Positions 24,545 to 45,442 of a DNA stretch of 45,442 bases are shown piece after piece. The translations under genes and the position numbers were made by a program. The notes beneath the pieces are model-generated. The model did no database searches, was not told where the DNA came from, and worked only from the letters and a program-made list of their open reading frames with translations. The stretch comes from Bacillota bacterium (GTDB lineage: Bacteria > Bacillota > Sulfobacillia > Sulfobacillales > Sulfobacillaceae). Numbering within the stretch: the stretch's first letter is position 1; each line of letters starts with the position of its first letter. The stretch covers positions 1 through 45,442 of the forward strand of contig JAIMAE010000005.1 in the NCBI GenBank assembly GCA_023512105.1. Reading direction: 5' to 3'.

Positions 24545-25687
24545 GTGGCCTTGGCGACAAGTTACAAACGGCGCACCCCGGAACAAATCCTGGAAGACAT
24601 CCGGCGCATGAGCCGGGGCAAGCACCGCATCTACCTCGGGGCGGCCCCTGGGGTGGGAAAGACTTACACCATGCTCAAAGATGCCCACGAGGCCAAGCAG
24701 CAGGGCGTGGACGTGGTGATCGGGGTGATCGACGCCCACGACCGCGCGGAGACGGCGGCCTTGGTCCAAGGGCTGGAGCAGGTGCCGCTGTTGCCGGCCT
24801 CCTACAAGGGGGTGCCGGTGTTCGAATTGAACGTCGACGCGGTGATGACCCGGGGGCCCGACGTGGTGCTGATCGACGAGCTGGCGCACACCAACGCCGA
24901 CGGCTGTCGGCACCTCAAACGCTACCAGGACGTCGAAGAGTTGTTGGCGGCAGGCATCAACGTGTGGTCCACTCTCAACATTCAACACCTGGAGTCGTTG
25001 AACGATACGGTGCGACAAATCACCGGGGTCAAGGTGCGCGAAACCATTCCCGACTCGGTGCTGCGCGGGGCGGAGGAAGTCCGGTTGATCGACCTCACCC
25101 CGGAGGCGCTGATCGACCGGCTGAAACGGGGCAAGATCTACCAGGGGGCGACCATCGACCGCGCCCTGCAGAATTTCTTCCGCACCGGCAACTTGACCGC
25201 CCTGCGCGAACTGGCGCTGCGGGCGGTCGCGGATGACACCGACGAGCGGCTGGAGCGCTACATGCATTACCACGCCATCGAAGGCCCGTGGCCAACCCAC
25301 GACCGGATCATGGTCGCGATCAGCCCCTCGCCGAACGGCGCGCGCCTGATCCGGCGCGGCTACCGGACGGTGCGTCGGCTGAAGGCGGAATTTTACGTGG
25401 TGTTCGTCCGCGCTCCCGACCGAAGGCTTCGGCCGGAAGATGAGCGACGTGTGGCCATGCACTTCGATTTGGCCCGGCAACTGGGGGCCAATGTGGTAGA
25501 ATTGCGGGGGAGTCACATCGCGCGCACGCTGGTCCAGTTTGCCCGCGAACACCACGTCACCGAGATCGTGATGGGGGAGTCCCTGCGGACCCGGTGGCAG
25601 GAGATCTGGCGCGGATCGGTCATCAATGAGGTCTTGCGGCTAACCAGCAACATCGACATCTTGGTCGTGGGACGAGAACCGGAGTAG
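24545..25687 (+). CDS. Stand-alone KdpD sensor (N-terminal KdpD plus UspA-like domain), no kinase
   Basis: 380 residues. Residues 1-215 match the KdpD N-terminal domain, with Walker A GAAPGVGKT (Lys39) and VVLIDELAHTN. Residues about 250-375 form the universal-stress-like domain. The protein stops there: the four membrane helices, GAF and histidine kinase parts of full KdpD are missing. Ala258-I-S-P-S then 20 residues then Phe283 fits the cyclic-di-AMP motif AxSxSx20F described for KdpD. It may sense c-di-AMP or potassium stress and act on a separate partner. GTG 24545 follows AGGAGG that overlaps the miaB stop. Confidence 0.88.
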   Translation: MALATSYKRRTPEQILEDIRRMSRGKHRIYLGAAPGVGKTYTMLKDAHEAKQQGVDVVIGVIDAHDRAETAALVQGLEQVPLLPASYKGVPVFELNVDAVMTRGPDVVLIDELAHTNADGCRHLKRYQDVEELLAAGINVWSTLNIQHLESLNDTVRQITGVKVRETIPDSVLRGAEEVRLIDLTPEALIDRLKRGKIYQGATIDRALQNFFRTGNLTALRELALRAVADDTDERLERYMHYHAIEGPWPTHDRIMVAISPSPNGARLIRRGYRTVRRLKAEFYVVFVRAPDRRLRPEDERRVAMHFDLARQLGANVVELRGSHIARTLVQFAREHHVTEIVMGESLRTRWQEIWRGSVINEVLRLTSNIDILVVGREPE

Positions 25688-26032: not shown

Positions 26033-27142
26033 TTACGCCTTGGGCCGAATCGGCGCCCCGGGATGGCGGCTGGACAACAAGGCTTGGGCGACCGCCGTCC
26101 ACCACTTGGCGTCCTCGTAGCCTACCCGCCAGAAGGCCACCCCACCGAGGTGGTAGCGCTCGGCCAGACGGATGCGGGCCACCGCCGCCCGGTCGTTGAC
26201 GAACCAGATCACGTGGGACACGCCGCGGGTGGTCCAGCGGTCATACGCTTCCTGGTAGGTCGGATCCCACTGGTAGGAGCCGTACAGGTGTTGGTGCATC
26301 GCCTTGAGCGGAATGGTCTTGGCCGCGGTGGAGCCGTCGGTCCACTCGTACCCGTAGTTGGCGATGCCGAGGTACAACTTCGAGGCCGGCACCCCGTCCG
26401 CTAACACCTTGCGGATCGAAGAGGCCACCCATTGGTAGGGACTGACCGGTCCTGGAGGCGTGCCATCCCCATGGTGGTCGTAGGCCATCAACACCACGGC
26501 TCCGGTATTGGCAGCCAAGGCTTTGTAGTCGTAGGCCCTCATCGAGCCGTTGTTGGAGGCCGGCGGCATCACCGAGGTGGTCAACAAGGTGCCAGGCGGC
26601 ATGGCGCGGTGCAAGGCGGCCATGAAGGCAATGAGGTCGCTGCGGTCGCCGGGTTTCAAGAGCTGAAAGTCGATGTTCACCCCGGCGTAGTGGTTGCGGC
26701 GAATCAAGGCCACGATGTTGTCGACGGCGGTGGTGCGCAGCGCTGCGGTGTGGAGGAAGGCGTCGGTGCCCCCGGCGTTGTTGATCAGGGGCATCAGGGC
26801 GATGTGCTGAGCCCGAGCCAAGGCCGCGATGTCACCCTGCGGTTTCGACAAGATCTGACCGTTGGCTTTTACCTCATACCAGAAGGGGGCGAGGTAGTTG
26901 ACCAGTCCGGGATGAGCTGCCATCAAGGCCAAGGGATTGGGAGGGACCGCCTCCTGGCTTTGGTCGTAGAAGGCGATCACCTTCATTTTGGGCCACGGGC
27001 GGGTGCGGACCGCGGGGACGAAGGCGCGAGGAGACGGGTTTTGGGGCGCGGGCGCGGGAGCCGGCTTGGCAGCCGTGCCGCACCCGGCGAAAAGGGTGGT
27101 GGCCAGCATGGCCACCCAAAGAGGCCAACGTTTGACGGTCAA
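26033..27142 (-). CDS. GH18-like (YaaH-type) lipoprotein, catalytic Glu replaced
   Basis: About 369 residues. Signal peptide with lipobox LFAGC (Cys21) and a Pro/Ala-rich linker, then a glycoside hydrolase 18 barrel resembling spore-wall YaaH/YdhD proteins (MKVIAFYDQ, LMPLINNAG, VVLMAYDHHGDG, YLGIANYGYEW, GGVAFWRVGYED). The catalytic DxxDxDxE segment reads AGVNIDFQ, so the acid is Gln160. It may bind rather than cut glycan. TTG 27142 is chosen because GAAGGAGGGG lies at 7-nt spacing upstream; the in-frame codon at 27172 lies before that site. It is divergent from rpsB. Confidence 0.85.
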   Translation of the reverse strand: MTVKRWPLWVAMLATTLFAGCGTAAKPAPAPAPQNPSPRAFVPAVRTRPWPKMKVIAFYDQSQEAVPPNPLALMAAHPGLVNYLAPFWYEVKANGQILSKPQGDIAALARAQHIALMPLINNAGGTDAFLHTAALRTTAVDNIVALIRRNHYAGVNIDFQLLKPGDRSDLIAFMAALHRAMPPGTLLTTSVMPPASNNGSMRAYDYKALAANTGAVVLMAYDHHGDGTPPGPVSPYQWVASSIRKVLADGVPASKLYLGIANYGYEWTDGSTAAKTIPLKAMHQHLYGSYQWDPTYQEAYDRWTTRGVSHVIWFVNDRAAVARIRLAERYHLGGVAFWRVGYEDAKWWTAVAQALLSSRHPGAPIRPKA

Positions 27143-27372
27143 CCGAATTCCCCTCCTTCGGCGAGACTTCAAAACCGCTGCGTGTGCAATCCCAGGGCGG
27201 TTGGGTAGGCGTCTCCCCCGGCCAGGTCAGCGATCCCAAGACGCCCAGGGATGCCGATTCGCCGCTATTTTTGGCGAGACGTGGCGGAGGTCATACTGGA
27301 AGTGGGAGGAAGGACAAACGGTTGCAGGACCAAGGTCGAGGAAGGGGTGCGGGCCCCTGCCGCCCGCCTTCC
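27143..27372. other. Divergent intergenic segment between the lipoprotein and rpsB
   Basis: About 230 bases with no convincing gene. It must hold the promoter of the minus-strand lipoprotein, but I see no clear sigma-A, sigma-E or sigma-G match. The rpsB promoter begins at 27373. Confidence 0.5.
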
Positions 27373-27402
27373 TTGAAGGGCAAACTGGCGGTGTGCTATA
27401 CT
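27373..27402 (+). promoter_or_regulatory. rpsB promoter with extended -10
   Basis: TTGAAG (27373-27378), an 18-nt spacer and TATACT (27397-27402) with TG one base upstream of the -10 (27394-27395). Transcription should begin near 27409, giving a leader of about 107 nt. Confidence 0.75.
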
Positions 27403-27408
27403 GTCAAG

Positions 27409-27516
27409 GGTTTTTCCCCCTTTGGAAAATGACGCACGCAGCGGAAAGTCCTGGTTCGGTCGTCTGAAAGGCGACGTGGATCGCGCGCTGCGGAGGTAAA
27501 AACCAGGAGGTGTCGT
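27409..27516 (+). promoter_or_regulatory. rpsB leader, possible autoregulatory pseudoknot
   Basis: CGCAGCG (27437-27443) is complementary to CGCTGCG (27486-27492). TCCTGGTT (27449-27456) is complementary to AACCAGGA (27501-27508), which covers part of the AGGAGG Shine-Dalgarno (27505-27510). The order of the four arms makes an H-type pseudoknot if both helices form. A hairpin GTCGTC/GGCGAC with a TGAAA loop lies inside. This is what an S2-responsive leader might look like; it is inferred from base pairing only. Confidence 0.5.
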
Positions 27517-28239
27517 ATGTCTGTCATTTCGATGAAGCAGCTGCTCGAGGCCGGGGTGCACTTCGGCCACCAAACCCGCCGCTGGAACCCCAAGATGAAG
27601 CCCTACATCTTTACCGAGCGCAACGGCATTTACATCATCGACCTGCAAAAGACCGTCCGCAAGGTAGACGAAGCTTACCAATTTATGCGCCGGGTGGGCA
27701 TGGAGGGCGGCAAGGTGCTGTTCATCGGCACCAAGAAGCAGGCTCAAGAGGCCGTGGCCGAGGAGGCCCGCCGATCCGGGGATTTTTACGTCAACCAGCG
27801 TTGGCTGGGGGGCATGTTGACCAATTTTGAGACGATTAAGCGGCGGGTTCGCCGTTTGGCCGAGTTGAAGGAGCAGGAGGCCTCCGGGCAGTGGGAGCGG
27901 TTGCCTAAAAAAGAGGTCAGTCGGTTGAGCCGCGAAAAGGCCAAGCTGGAGAAGTATCTCGGCGGCATCGAAGGGATGCGGACGTTGCCGGCGGCGGTCT
28001 TCGTGGTCGACCCGCGCAAGGAGCACATCGCCGTCACCGAAGCCCGGCGGATGCAGATCCCGATCGTGGCCATCGTCGACACCAACTGCGACCCGGACGA
28101 AATCGACTATGTGATCCCGGGCAACGACGACGCCATTCGCGCCGTCCGCCTGCTGACGGCGAAAATGGCGGACGCCTTGTTGGAGGGGCGCCAAGGCGAG
28201 ACCGTGCCGAGCGAGGAGCCGGTGGCGGAAGCGCAATAA
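27517..28239 (+). CDS. rpsB: 30S ribosomal protein S2
   Basis: 240 residues, normal length. [44 protein letters not shown] and the D-P-R-K-E ([14 protein letters not shown]) segments are family hallmarks. It is the first gene of the rpsB-tsf-pyrH-frr set. ATG 27517 with AGGAGG at 6-nt spacing. Confidence 0.98.
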
Positions 28240-28324: not shown

Positions 28325-28942
28325 TTGATTAGTGCACAAGACGTCAAGCGTTTACGCGAGCGTACGGGCGCGGGGATGATGGAGTGTAAGAAGGCGTTGA
28401 CAGACGCCGGAGGTGATTTCGAGCGAGCGGTCGACCTCCTGCGCGAACGCGGCCTGGCTCAGGCGGCCAAGAAGTCAGGGCGGGCGGCCAACGAGGGGTT
28501 GATCGAAAGCTACATCCACCTGCAGGGGCGGATCGGGGTGTTGGTGGAGATCAACTGCGAGACCGATTTTGTCGCCAACACGCCGGATTTCCGCAACCTG
28601 GCTCACGACGTGGCTATGCACATCGCCGCGGCGCGCCCGCGCTACATTCGGCGCGAAGACGTTCCGGCGGCTGAAGTGGAACACGAACGGGAGATCTTGC
28701 GCCGGCAGGCGCTGGCGGAGGGCAAGCCGGAGGCGATTGTGGCCAAGATGGTCGAAGGGCGCATGAACAAGTTCTATCAGGAAGTCTGCCTGTTGGAGCA
28801 GCCGTTCGTCAAGAATCCCGATGTCACCGTGGATCAGGTGATCAAGGAACATATCGCACGACTCGGGGAACAAATCGCAGTGAGGCGGTTTACCCGTTAC
28901 GAGCGCGGGGAAGAGCTGGAACCCGCCGGGGTGGGGGAGTAG
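28325..28942 (+). CDS. tsf: Elongation factor Ts, short form
   Basis: Guanine-nucleotide exchange factor of EF-Tu. 205 residues, like the short Thermus-type protein and shorter than the 280-290 residues of E. coli or Bacillus. The N-terminal UBA-like region is [19 protein letters not shown], and [14 protein letters not shown] is the core EF-Tu contact. TTG 28325 follows AAGAGGAGG. A terminator lies just after the stop. Confidence 0.97.
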
Positions 28943-38537: not shown

Positions 38538-41500
38538 ATGGACCCGGCCTTGAGCCAGTTGTTGCAAGACCTTGGGCTGCGTCCCGAAACGTTTGTTCCC
38601 ATCGTGGCCGAGTGGGACGGGGTGGCAGGGGTGCGCGTCACCCTGGCCCGCTATCCGGAGGGGTGGGACCAAGCCGAGGCAAGCGTGACCCGTTGGCTGG
38701 GACAAGCCTGGGGGGTGCCGGTGCGCTGGACGGTTCCTGCCTGGCCAGATGCGCCGGCTGAGCGGCTGATGGCGACCCTGCAGGCGCTTGCCCCCACTCA
38801 AGCCGCCTTGTGGACCGACCTCGAGGTCCGCGCCGAGGCCAATCGGCTCCACCTGCGGGTGCAAAGCCCTTGGGTCAAGGAGCTCTTTGAACGCTGGGGC
38901 GGAGCGGAGCGCCTGCGGCGGGTGTGGCCGGAGATGCCTGAGCTGCTGGTGGAGTGCCAGACCTTGCCTGAGCCGGAGCCGGATCCGGTGATCCCGGTCG
39001 AGGTGGGATCCGCCAATGGGCGTCGAGCCCCGGCGGGCGATCCCATGCCCTACGATGCGTTGGTCGAAGGGGCTCGGGCGCTGATCGCCGGGAAGGTGTT
39101 CGCTCGAGAGCTGAGAGTGACCCGGGACGGTCGCCAAACCCTGGCGCTGGCCCTCACCGACGGGCAGCGGGCGGTGCGCGCGCGCCTGTTTGAGCGGGAC
39201 CCGGCCGACCGCGAGGTCTTTCGGGAGGTCGAAGAGGGTCAGTGGCTGAAGCTGCAAGGGCAGGTGGAGCGAGACAAGTACCATGAAGAGTTGGAGCTGC
39301 GGGTGGAGGAGTGGGGGCCGGTCGATCCCCCTCGCCTGGCCGACGACGCCGCCGTGCCGCGGGTGGAGCTTCACCTGCACACCAAGATGAGCGCGATGGA
39401 TGGGCTGATCGAGGTGGGCGACGCCTTTATGCTGGCCAAGCAACTTGGCCATCCGGCGTTGGCGGTGGTCGACCACGGGGTGGTGCAGGCCTATCCGGAG
39501 GTGGAGAGCTGGGCAAAGCGGACGGGGGTCAAGGCGATTTACGGGCTGGAGGCCTACATGGTCCCCGACGCGGTGAAAATCGCCGAGGGGACCCCGAAAG
39601 CGGGATTCTGGGACGTGCCCTGGGTGGTGGTGGACGTCGAGACCACCGGGCTCACCCCCTGGAGCCACGAGGTGATGGAGATCGGCGCGGTGCGCTGGGA
39701 AGGTGGCGAGGTGGTCGGTCGCTTCCAGCGGTTGATTCGGCCGCGCCGCTCGGTGTCCAAGGCCAGTGTCAGGATCACCGGTATCGACGCCCGCTCCTTG
39801 GAAGCCGCAGAGCCCCCGGAAGCGGTCTGGCCGGAGTTTTTCCGCTTCGCCCAAGGGGCGGTGCTGGTGGCTCACAACGCCCGCTACGACATCGGATACC
39901 TTCGGCGGGCGTGGGCCGAGTACGGGGTGGGCCCCTGGCCCCACGCCTATCTCGACACCCTGAACTGGGCGCGGGTGGCCCTGCCCGGGCAGAAAAGTTA
40001 CGGGCTGGAGCCGCTGTGCGAGCACTTCAAAATCGCGTTAAGCCAGCACCACCGGGCCTTGGCGGACGCCGAAGCCACCCTCTACGTGGCGTTGAAGCTC
40101 AAAGAGGTCGACCACGCGGCCTTGCAGGACCCGGAGCTCCTGCCCAGGCCGCGGGCGGTGGACTGGCAGGCCTTGCGCCCGCTGCCGGTGGTCTTGTTGC
40201 TGCGCGACCCCGCGGGGATTGAGCCGCTCTACCAGCTGGTCAGCCGCTCGCACCTGGAGACTTTCCACCGCGTTCCTCGAGTGATGCAGTCGTGGATCGC
40301 CGAGCTGCGGGAATACCTGTGGGTGGGTTCTCCGATGCACGGGGGAGAAGTGGTGGAGGCCTTGTACCGCGGGGCGGAGGACGCGGAGTTGGACCAGGTG
40401 GTGGGATTCTACGACTACCTGGAGATCGCCCCGGTGCAAGGGGGCCATAATTGGCTTCGCGAAGAGGAGTTCGGCTCGATGGAGGCCGTGCAAGCCTTTC
40501 TCACCCGCTACCTGGAGCTGGGACAGCGCTGGCGAAAGCCGGTGGTGGCCGTCTCCGACGCCCACTATCTGCGGCCGGAAGACGGGGTGTTGCGGGAAAT
40601 TTTGGCCGATACCGCCAAAGGGGAGCTGCACGACCGGGACGCCGCCCTGTACTACCGCACCACTGGGGAGATGTTGAACGCCTTTGCCTGGCTCGGCCAG
40701 GAACAGGCCGAGGAGGTGGTGGTCCACGCCCCACGTCGCTTGGCCGAGTCCATTCCCGCGATCGCGCCGGTGCCCGACGGGCTGTATGCGCCCCACTTGG
40801 AGGAGGCGGAATCGGTCGTCTCCGAAGTGCCTTGGCAGCGGGCCCGAGCCTGGTACGGCGACCCGCTCCCCGAGGTGGTCAGCGACCGACTGAAGCGGGA
40901 GATTTCGGCCATCGTCACCCACGGCTTTGCCAGCATTTACTATATCGCCCACCGGCTGGTGGAAAAGTCGCTACAAGACGGCTACCTGGTGGGATCGCGG
41001 GGTTCGGTGGGATCTTCCTTGGTGGCCACCCTGCTCAACATTACCGAGGTCAACCCGCTGCCGCCCCACTACCGTTGCCCCGCCTGTGCCTTCAGCCAGT
41101 TCGAAGGGCTGGAAGGATACGGCTCGGGGTTCGACCTACCGCCTCGGCCCTGCCCTCGCTGCGGGCAGCCTTTGCTCGGGGACGGGCACGACATTCCCTT
41201 CGAGACCTTTCTGGGGTTTGAAGGAGACAAGGTTCCCGACATCGACCTCAACTTCTCCGGGGAGTATCAACCGGAGATCCACCGTTATGCCGAGGCCTTG
41301 TTTGGCAAAGGGCACGTGTTTCGGGCCGGCACCATCGCCACCGTGGCCGACAAGACCGCCTTTGGTTTGGTTCGCGCCTGGGCCCGCGACCGTGGGCGCC
41401 AATTGTCCAGCGTGGAGGTCGAGTGGCTGGCTCGAGGGCTCAGCGGGGTCAAGCGTACCACCGGCCAGCACCCGGGAGGGCTGATGGTGGTGCCCAAGCA

Positions 41501-44271: not shown

Positions 44272-45034
44272 GGCAGAACTTGGCCCCGCGGTGGCCTGGA
44301 TTGGGCTGGCGCGTCGCGCCGGCAAGTTGGCCCCAGGGGATCAGGCGGTGCATCTGGCGCTGAAGTATCACCGGGCGCGGCTGGTCTGGTTGGCCGAGGA
44401 TGGCGGCCAGGCGACCCGACGCAAATATGAGTTTTGGGCGAAGACGGAGGGAGTCCCGGTGGTGCAGGCAGGCACCAAGGTAGAGCTCGGCTCTGCCGCC
44501 GGGATGGCGCCGCTCGCGGTATTAGCGATTGAAGACCGACGGATGGCCGAACGGGTGCTTGACGCGTTGGAAGTCGCAATGGGGGGATTGGAATTTGGCA
44601 GAGAAGGACAAAATCCGCGTATACGAACTGGCCAAAGAGTTGAAGTTGGACAGCCGGCGCCTGATCGACCTGCTGCACCGACTGCACGTGGAAAACATCA
44701 AAAATCACATGAGCACCGTGGAACCGGCGGCGGTGCAGACGGTTCGGGACATCATGCAAGGCAAGCTGCCACCAGACCCCAAGCCAGCCGCTCCGCCTCC
44801 CCGACCGGCGCCTCCGCCCGCACCCGCGAGTCGTCCGGCGGGCCCGCCGCGTCCCGCATCCCCTCCGACCTCAGCGTCCGCGCCGGGAGGGGTAAGAACC
44901 CCAGCCGCCTCGGCACCCGCGCCGGCAGGGGTGAGACCGCGTCCAGAGGGAGCCAGGCCGGCCGCGCCCCCCGTGGTTCCCAGAAGCAGCGGAGAGCCGC
45001 GGGCGGCCGCTCCGACCGCAGGCGGCCGCGTTGA
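44264..45034 (+). CDS. ylxQ: YlxQ-like L7Ae-family ribosomal protein with long C-terminal extension into infB
   Basis: The first about 110 residues match the L7Ae/YlxQ fold: WIGLARRAGKLAPGDQAVHL, ARLVWLAEDGGQATRRKYE, then VPVVQAGTKVELGSA. Family members are about 100 residues, but no stop occurs until 45034, giving 256 residues. The last about 145, rich in Arg, Gly, Ala and Ser, overlap infB in another frame. The overlap may be a real out-of-frame run-on, or a sequencing slip near residue 110. The start is GTG 44264, within the end of ylxR. Confidence 0.75.
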   Translation: MAKAELGPAVAWIGLARRAGKLAPGDQAVHLALKYHRARLVWLAEDGGQATRRKYEFWAKTEGVPVVQAGTKVELGSAAGMAPLAVLAIEDRRMAERVLDALEVAMGGLEFGREGQNPRIRTGQRVEVGQPAPDRPAAPTARGKHQKSHEHRGTGGGADGSGHHARQAATRPQASRSASPTGASARTRESSGGPAASRIPSDLSVRAGRGKNPSRLGTRAGRGETASRGSQAGRAPRGSQKQRRAAGGRSDRRRPR

Positions 45035-45442
45035 GCGACCCGAGTTGGCCCGCGGAGGAGCCGCCGGAGCGCCGCGCCCGGCGGGCCCGCCGCGCTCCCA
45101 GGGCGCCCACCCGGCGGGGACCGCTCCGGCTCCCCGGCCGGCGGGCGGCAGCCCGGTGCCGCGCCCGGGGGGACGTCCGATGCCTTCCGGCGGGGGACCG
45201 CGCCCGGCCGGTGGCCCCCGGCCGCCGATGGGGCCTCCCCGCCCGCGGACAGAGGGCGGGCCTCGGCCGGCCGGCCGCCCCGGCCTAGTCCCGCCGCCAC
45301 CGCCTCCTTGGGCGGCGCCCAAGCCTAGCAAGGATGCCCAGCGCCGAGGCGGGGTCCATCACCGGGGGCGCAAGGGCGGGCTCAAGGACGAAGAAGAGCG
45401 GTTTGGCCGCGATTGGGACGAGGAGGGGTTCGGCAGCAAGCG
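44595..45442 (+). CDS. infB: Translation initiation factor IF-2, 5' part only
   Basis: Runs off the end of the window without a stop. TTG 44595 follows GGGGGA at about 7-nt spacing. The N-terminal IF2_N domain is clear: KIRVYELAKELKLDSRRLID and HVENIKNHMSTVE. Residues about 60-245 form a very long Pro/Ala/Gly/Arg linker, ending in KDAQRRGGVHHRGRKGG and an acidic stretch, as in other high-GC IF-2 proteins. The GTPase domain lies beyond the window. It closes the nusA-ylxR-ylxQ-infB operon. Confidence 0.93.
   Translation, partial: MAEKDKIRVYELAKELKLDSRRLIDLLHRLHVENIKNHMSTVEPAAVQTVRDIMQGKLPPDPKPAAPPPRPAPPPAPASRPAGPPRPASPPTSASAPGGVRTPAASAPAPAGVRPRPEGARPAAPPVVPRSSGEPRAAAPTAGGRVERPELARGGAAGAPRPAGPPRSQGAHPAGTAPAPRPAGGSPVPRPGGRPMPSGGGPRPAGGPRPPMGPPRPRTEGGPRPAGRPGLVPPPPPPWAAPKPSKDAQRRGGVHHRGRKGGLKDEEERFGRDWDEEGFGSK

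Follow-up and report, generated by a model that had tools for sequence, protein, structure and literature searches.

A compact form of the rpsB leader motif in the Sulfobacillus-containing family of Bacillota, with a predicted pseudoknot that overlaps the Shine-Dalgarno sequence

The rpsB locus

The gene for ribosomal protein S2, rpsB, lies on the forward strand at 27517-28239 (PF00318, E 1.7e-101; ATG at 27517) of the window, the whole stretch of 45,442 nucleotides analysed here, which comes from a family that includes Sulfobacillus. The next gene, tsf (28325-28942, forward strand; PF00889, E 9.7e-46), encodes elongation factor Ts. Divergent from rpsB is the gene for a glycosyl hydrolase family 18 protein with a lipoprotein-like start (26033-27172, reverse strand; PF00704). 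Another nearby gene (24545-25687, forward strand) encodes a stand-alone KdpD sensor plus universal-stress domain (PF02702, PF00582), a protein of 380 aa that lacks the histidine-kinase part.

The intergenic region contains a single promoter (one found, 0.0 expected). This is of the sigma-A type and occupies 27373-27402 on the forward strand, with TTGAAG and TATACT separated by 18 nt and an extended TG. Transcription is expected to start near 27409, about 7 nt past the -10 box, and on that assumption the leader would be about 108 nt long. Transcription attenuation was considered and rejected: the lone terminator-like match (27386-27406) lies across part of the promoter and does not exceed chance level.

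Two perfect helices had been predicted in this leader from the window alone, and their sequences and coordinates are exact to the base. The first, P1, pairs CGCAGCG (27437-27443) with CGCTGCG (27486-27492) over 7 bp; the second pairs TCCTGGTT (27449-27456) with AACCAGGA (27501-27508) over 8 bp. All arms are on the forward strand. The arms interleave, forming a potential pseudoknot with loops of 5, 29, and 8 nt, lengths that suit an H-type pseudoknot, and 27428-27516 contains no other perfect helix of at least 6 bp. As also predicted, the second helix hides part of the Shine-Dalgarno sequence AGGAGG (27505-27510): four of its six bases (27505-27508) are paired.

Further subelements are apparent. 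A conserved unpaired box, CGCA or CACA, lies directly 5' of P1 (27433-27436), and a GAGG box lies 3' of P1 (27493-27496); both are defined by leader alignments and shared with Escherichia coli, and the latter belongs to the motif rather than to the Shine-Dalgarno sequence itself. The 5' arm of the second helix occupies the place of a conserved NGGTG box. Finally, a small hairpin, P3 (27459-27475), is predicted inside the loop, with 7 bp and a GAA loop; it is missing from several relatives, whose loops span just 7-14 nt.

Could such complementarity arise by chance in a G+C-rich leader? Interleaved helices as long as these two, or longer, formed in one of 5000 dinucleotide shuffles of 27428-27516, in 22 of 5000 shuffles of the longer leader (27405-27516), and in nine of 3024 tiles of the window, grouped in a few clusters. 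The signal from the window sequence alone is therefore moderately unusual, and relatives are needed to decide. (Other such pairs are possible at 39001-39615 and 44986-45150, and probably reflect chance in G+C-rich sequence.) The ordinary folding energy of the leader is not unusual (z -0.19), a value that is uninformative alone.

Covariation across the Bacillota

A covariance model, R1, was built from 36 leaders, with the window's family left out and with no pseudoknot information. In the window it finds a single match (27432-27512, forward strand; 29.7 bits), taken here as the extent of the whole element. In the genome of the window the rpsB leader ranks best (E 2.6e-4), and no convincing match was found elsewhere, the next having E 3.55. 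R1 has matches at E 0.01 or better in at least 254 of the 299 Bacillota genomes, a minimum count because the strict filters miss even the window itself. R1 also matches the E. coli rpsB leader (L141:279-357), inside the region for which S2 autoregulation has been shown in vivo. Since this family-blind model finds the window, most sampled Bacillota, and E. coli alike, the window element is identified as the known rpsB motif. Its common order in the other Bacillota and E. coli is CRCACG, P1, NGGTG, P1', GAGG, AACC, and the Shine-Dalgarno sequence.

Covariation was evaluated in 99 distinct Bacillota leaders, with positions taken from the R1 alignment and the pseudoknot counted via its GT and AAC anchors, independent of the variable bases. 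P1 is paired in 97.0% of cells over six pairs, with double changes at all six. All four variable pseudoknot pairs likewise show compensatory changes. The covariation score is 0.556, compared with 0.150 +- 0.011 after shuffling, and none of 500 shuffles attained 0.556. Sliding the partners by a single base lowers the share of paired cells from 86.8% to 40-44%, and slides of one to three bases leave at most 57.7%.

Shuffles leave relatedness in place, but the slid-partner control keeps it. GC, UA, CG, AU, and GU all occur at the first variable pseudoknot pair, which is canonical in 118-124 of 137 leaders as against 95-98 after shuffling; such variety of pair types would be hard to explain by relatedness. 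For a few leaders (for example L069, L077, and L092) the AAC anchor could be chosen in more than one way, but the two anchor rules agreed in outcome, and the result of permuting the pseudoknot arms did not depend on whether the window's family was included.

Compensatory changes in both helices argue that the pairing is real, which bears out the original prediction of a leader pseudoknot. Chance complementarity, for which the shuffles of the longer leader and the few other sites in the window might have spoken, is thereby ruled out, its residual probability being very slight indeed.

Some leaders depart from the common form. Seven from Selenomonadales/Selenomonadaceae (L063, L066, L067, L070, L078, L083, and L089), which R1 misses, have an altered P1 and a 3' box resembling GCGAAAG rather than GCGGAGG; CCTGT/ACAGG(AGG) pseudoknots are suggested in most. 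In more distant members of the class (L048, L053, L054, and L055) the motif contains unusual or long insertions, and in two of these (L054 and L055) additional G+C-rich sequence seems to separate P1 from AAC.

The compact form in the family

Among 61 related genomes, rpsB was located in 59. P1 is kept in all 31 family leaders, with 214 of 217 stem cells canonical, so the uncompensated loss of complementarity that might have undone the prediction was looked for and did not appear. Five of the seven P1 pairs show double changes, up to 24 at one pair. The pairing CCTGGT/ACCAGG before the start codon is also kept in 31 of 31. Because it is invariant there, the pairs that overlap the Shine-Dalgarno sequence are conserved, rather than proven by covariation, inside the family. 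L003, the nearest relative, has an altered P1 that still pairs, and its second helix is identical to that of the window.

Across the family the pseudoknot has 6-9 bp and, in 27 of the 28 leaders scored, covers two to six Shine-Dalgarno bases. (The lone exception, L003, results from anchor placement; read directly, its pseudoknot is that of the window.) The family leaders have no long upper stem and no clear bulge. In some relatives the loop shrinks to 7-14 nt and P3 disappears (short loops in L004-L013; 8 nt in L007).

Whether the two helices coexist deserves consideration. The leader might instead switch between two nested folds, the P1 hairpin or a long second hairpin, with the helices never formed simultaneously. 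The minimum-energy fold indeed has the second helix without P1, and a nested fold without P1 is predicted to be stabler than folds with it (-46.1 versus -42.7 kcal/mol, pseudoknots not being scored); moreover, covariation is blind to the difference between simultaneous and alternative helices. However, loop lengths across the 31 leaders stay mostly within the H-type range despite sequence change, and Meyer et al. (2009; PMC2704228) depicted the same crossing pair as a pseudoknot. A nested switch thus seems distinctly unlikely, and the pseudoknot is the preferred reading. On comparative grounds, then, P1 and the pseudoknot helix are conserved by compensatory change between the promoter and rpsB, and in the family the pseudoknot helix overlaps the Shine-Dalgarno sequence.

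Relation to known S2 leaders

Meyer et al. (2009; BMC Genomics 10:268, PMC2704228) described the rpsB motif as a P1 stem, variable P2 and P3, and a pseudoknot between the junction and the 3' extension after P1. They reported it from Alphaproteobacteria and Gammaproteobacteria, from Cyanobacteria, and from some of the Firmicutes; its pseudoknot has three pairs in the last group and five in the others. The earlier supposition that Firmicutes have no described equivalent was therefore mistaken, and R1 finds the motif in most sampled Bacillota. (A Firmicutes study of S2 autoregulation itself was not found in the open-access literature searched.)

The window element resembles this motif in its P1, its pseudoknot between junction and 3' extension, its place before rpsB, and the absence of P2: it lies directly 5' of rpsB, with a covarying P1 (lower stem only) and the pseudoknot. 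It differs in that its pseudoknot has 8 bp and reaches into the Shine-Dalgarno sequence, it lacks the long upper stem, and some relatives are without P3 as well.

The E. coli rpsB leader answers to S2 in vivo (Meyer et al. 2009, PMC2704228, among other papers); its S2 autoregulation is credited to Aseev et al. (2008) in PMC10931766. The likeness to this gammaproteobacterial leader, proposed at the outset, holds: the E. coli leader (RF00127, t44) and the window share the order of boxes and helices, CACACGTATC..GGGGTGCC..GATACGTGGAGGCATAACCCC. The E. coli pseudoknot arm, however, stops about 22 nt short of the start codon and so does not touch the Shine-Dalgarno sequence, part of which the arm in the window covers. 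According to a recent review, the E. coli ribosome-binding site lies outside the operator, S1 is required, and a conserved bulge is essential.

A search of Rfam with the window gave no match, even at E up to 10. The t44 model has a gathering cut-off of 44 bits, which the window does not reach; the E. coli leader scores 83.5 bits. Run in reverse, t44 does find the rpsB leaders of three family members in the right place (E 0.0013-0.008), at up to 27.4 bits and so below the cut-off. Since t44, the only Rfam model seen matching an rpsB leader here, misses the window element, many Bacillota rpsB leaders probably are unannotated.

Among the 109 other Bacillota leaders, 18 have a pseudoknot that covers the Shine-Dalgarno sequence. 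Some of these (for example L079, L104, L106, L088, and L098) run into AGGAGG as the window does, but their pairing sequences differ and the upper stem usually is kept. The arms elsewhere include CCTGT/ACAGG (L079, L104, and L106), CTTGT/ACAAGG (L090, L096, and L098), and CTGGT/ACCAG. The compact form, with 6-9 bp rather than three to five and extending into the Shine-Dalgarno sequence, seems to be new; it occurs in the family of the window and, built from other sequences, in some Bacillota outside it.

A model for control by S2

These comparisons suggest that the compact rpsB motif is probably a cis-acting S2 leader, whose pseudoknot, stabilised by S2, would occlude the ribosome-binding site. 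S2 in excess over nascent 30S subunits would bind the folded leader and hold the pseudoknot shut, hiding AGGAGG from the 30S subunit. Synthesis of S2 would thereby be lowered and, through the shared message, that of EF-Ts as well. Scarcity of S2 would presumably let the second helix open and translation go ahead.

The pseudoknot might be real and yet not sense S2, setting a fixed or growth-dependent initiation rate or protecting the 5' end of the message. The upper stem and the bulge on which S2 control is reported to depend in E. coli are absent from the compact forms, and the motif sits at the very start of the message: an extended -10 element, TGnTAnnnT, lies 5' of it in 124 of 127 leaders, at a median distance of 17 nt. 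Against this, the unpaired boxes CRCA, GGTG, GAGG, and AACC are kept from E. coli to the family, although bare stability or protection would not need them, and the genome of the window has no convincing match outside the rpsB leader (next E 3.55). A pseudoknot without S2 sensing thus appears unlikely, and the S2 leader is favoured. Recognition of S2 in the family may nevertheless differ from that in E. coli, because the long upper stem and clear bulge are absent.

The S2-leader model has a bolder version. The ancient S2 leader may have shrunk, in the family of the window and separately in a few Bacillota outside it, to a minimal H-type pseudoknot, measuring about 50 nt in L007, that both senses S2 and directly plugs the Shine-Dalgarno sequence, a mode of switching unlike that of E. 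coli. The case for this version is evenly balanced.

Implications

How the E. coli S2 leader shuts off translation is unclear, according to the recent review, as the ribosome-binding site sits outside the operator. If the model is correct, a compact leader that plugs the Shine-Dalgarno sequence would differ from it in mode. The compact form also reveals what may be the common core of these leaders: CRCA, P1, GGTG, GAGG, and AACC. It would offer a small, directly testable version of the S2 switch.
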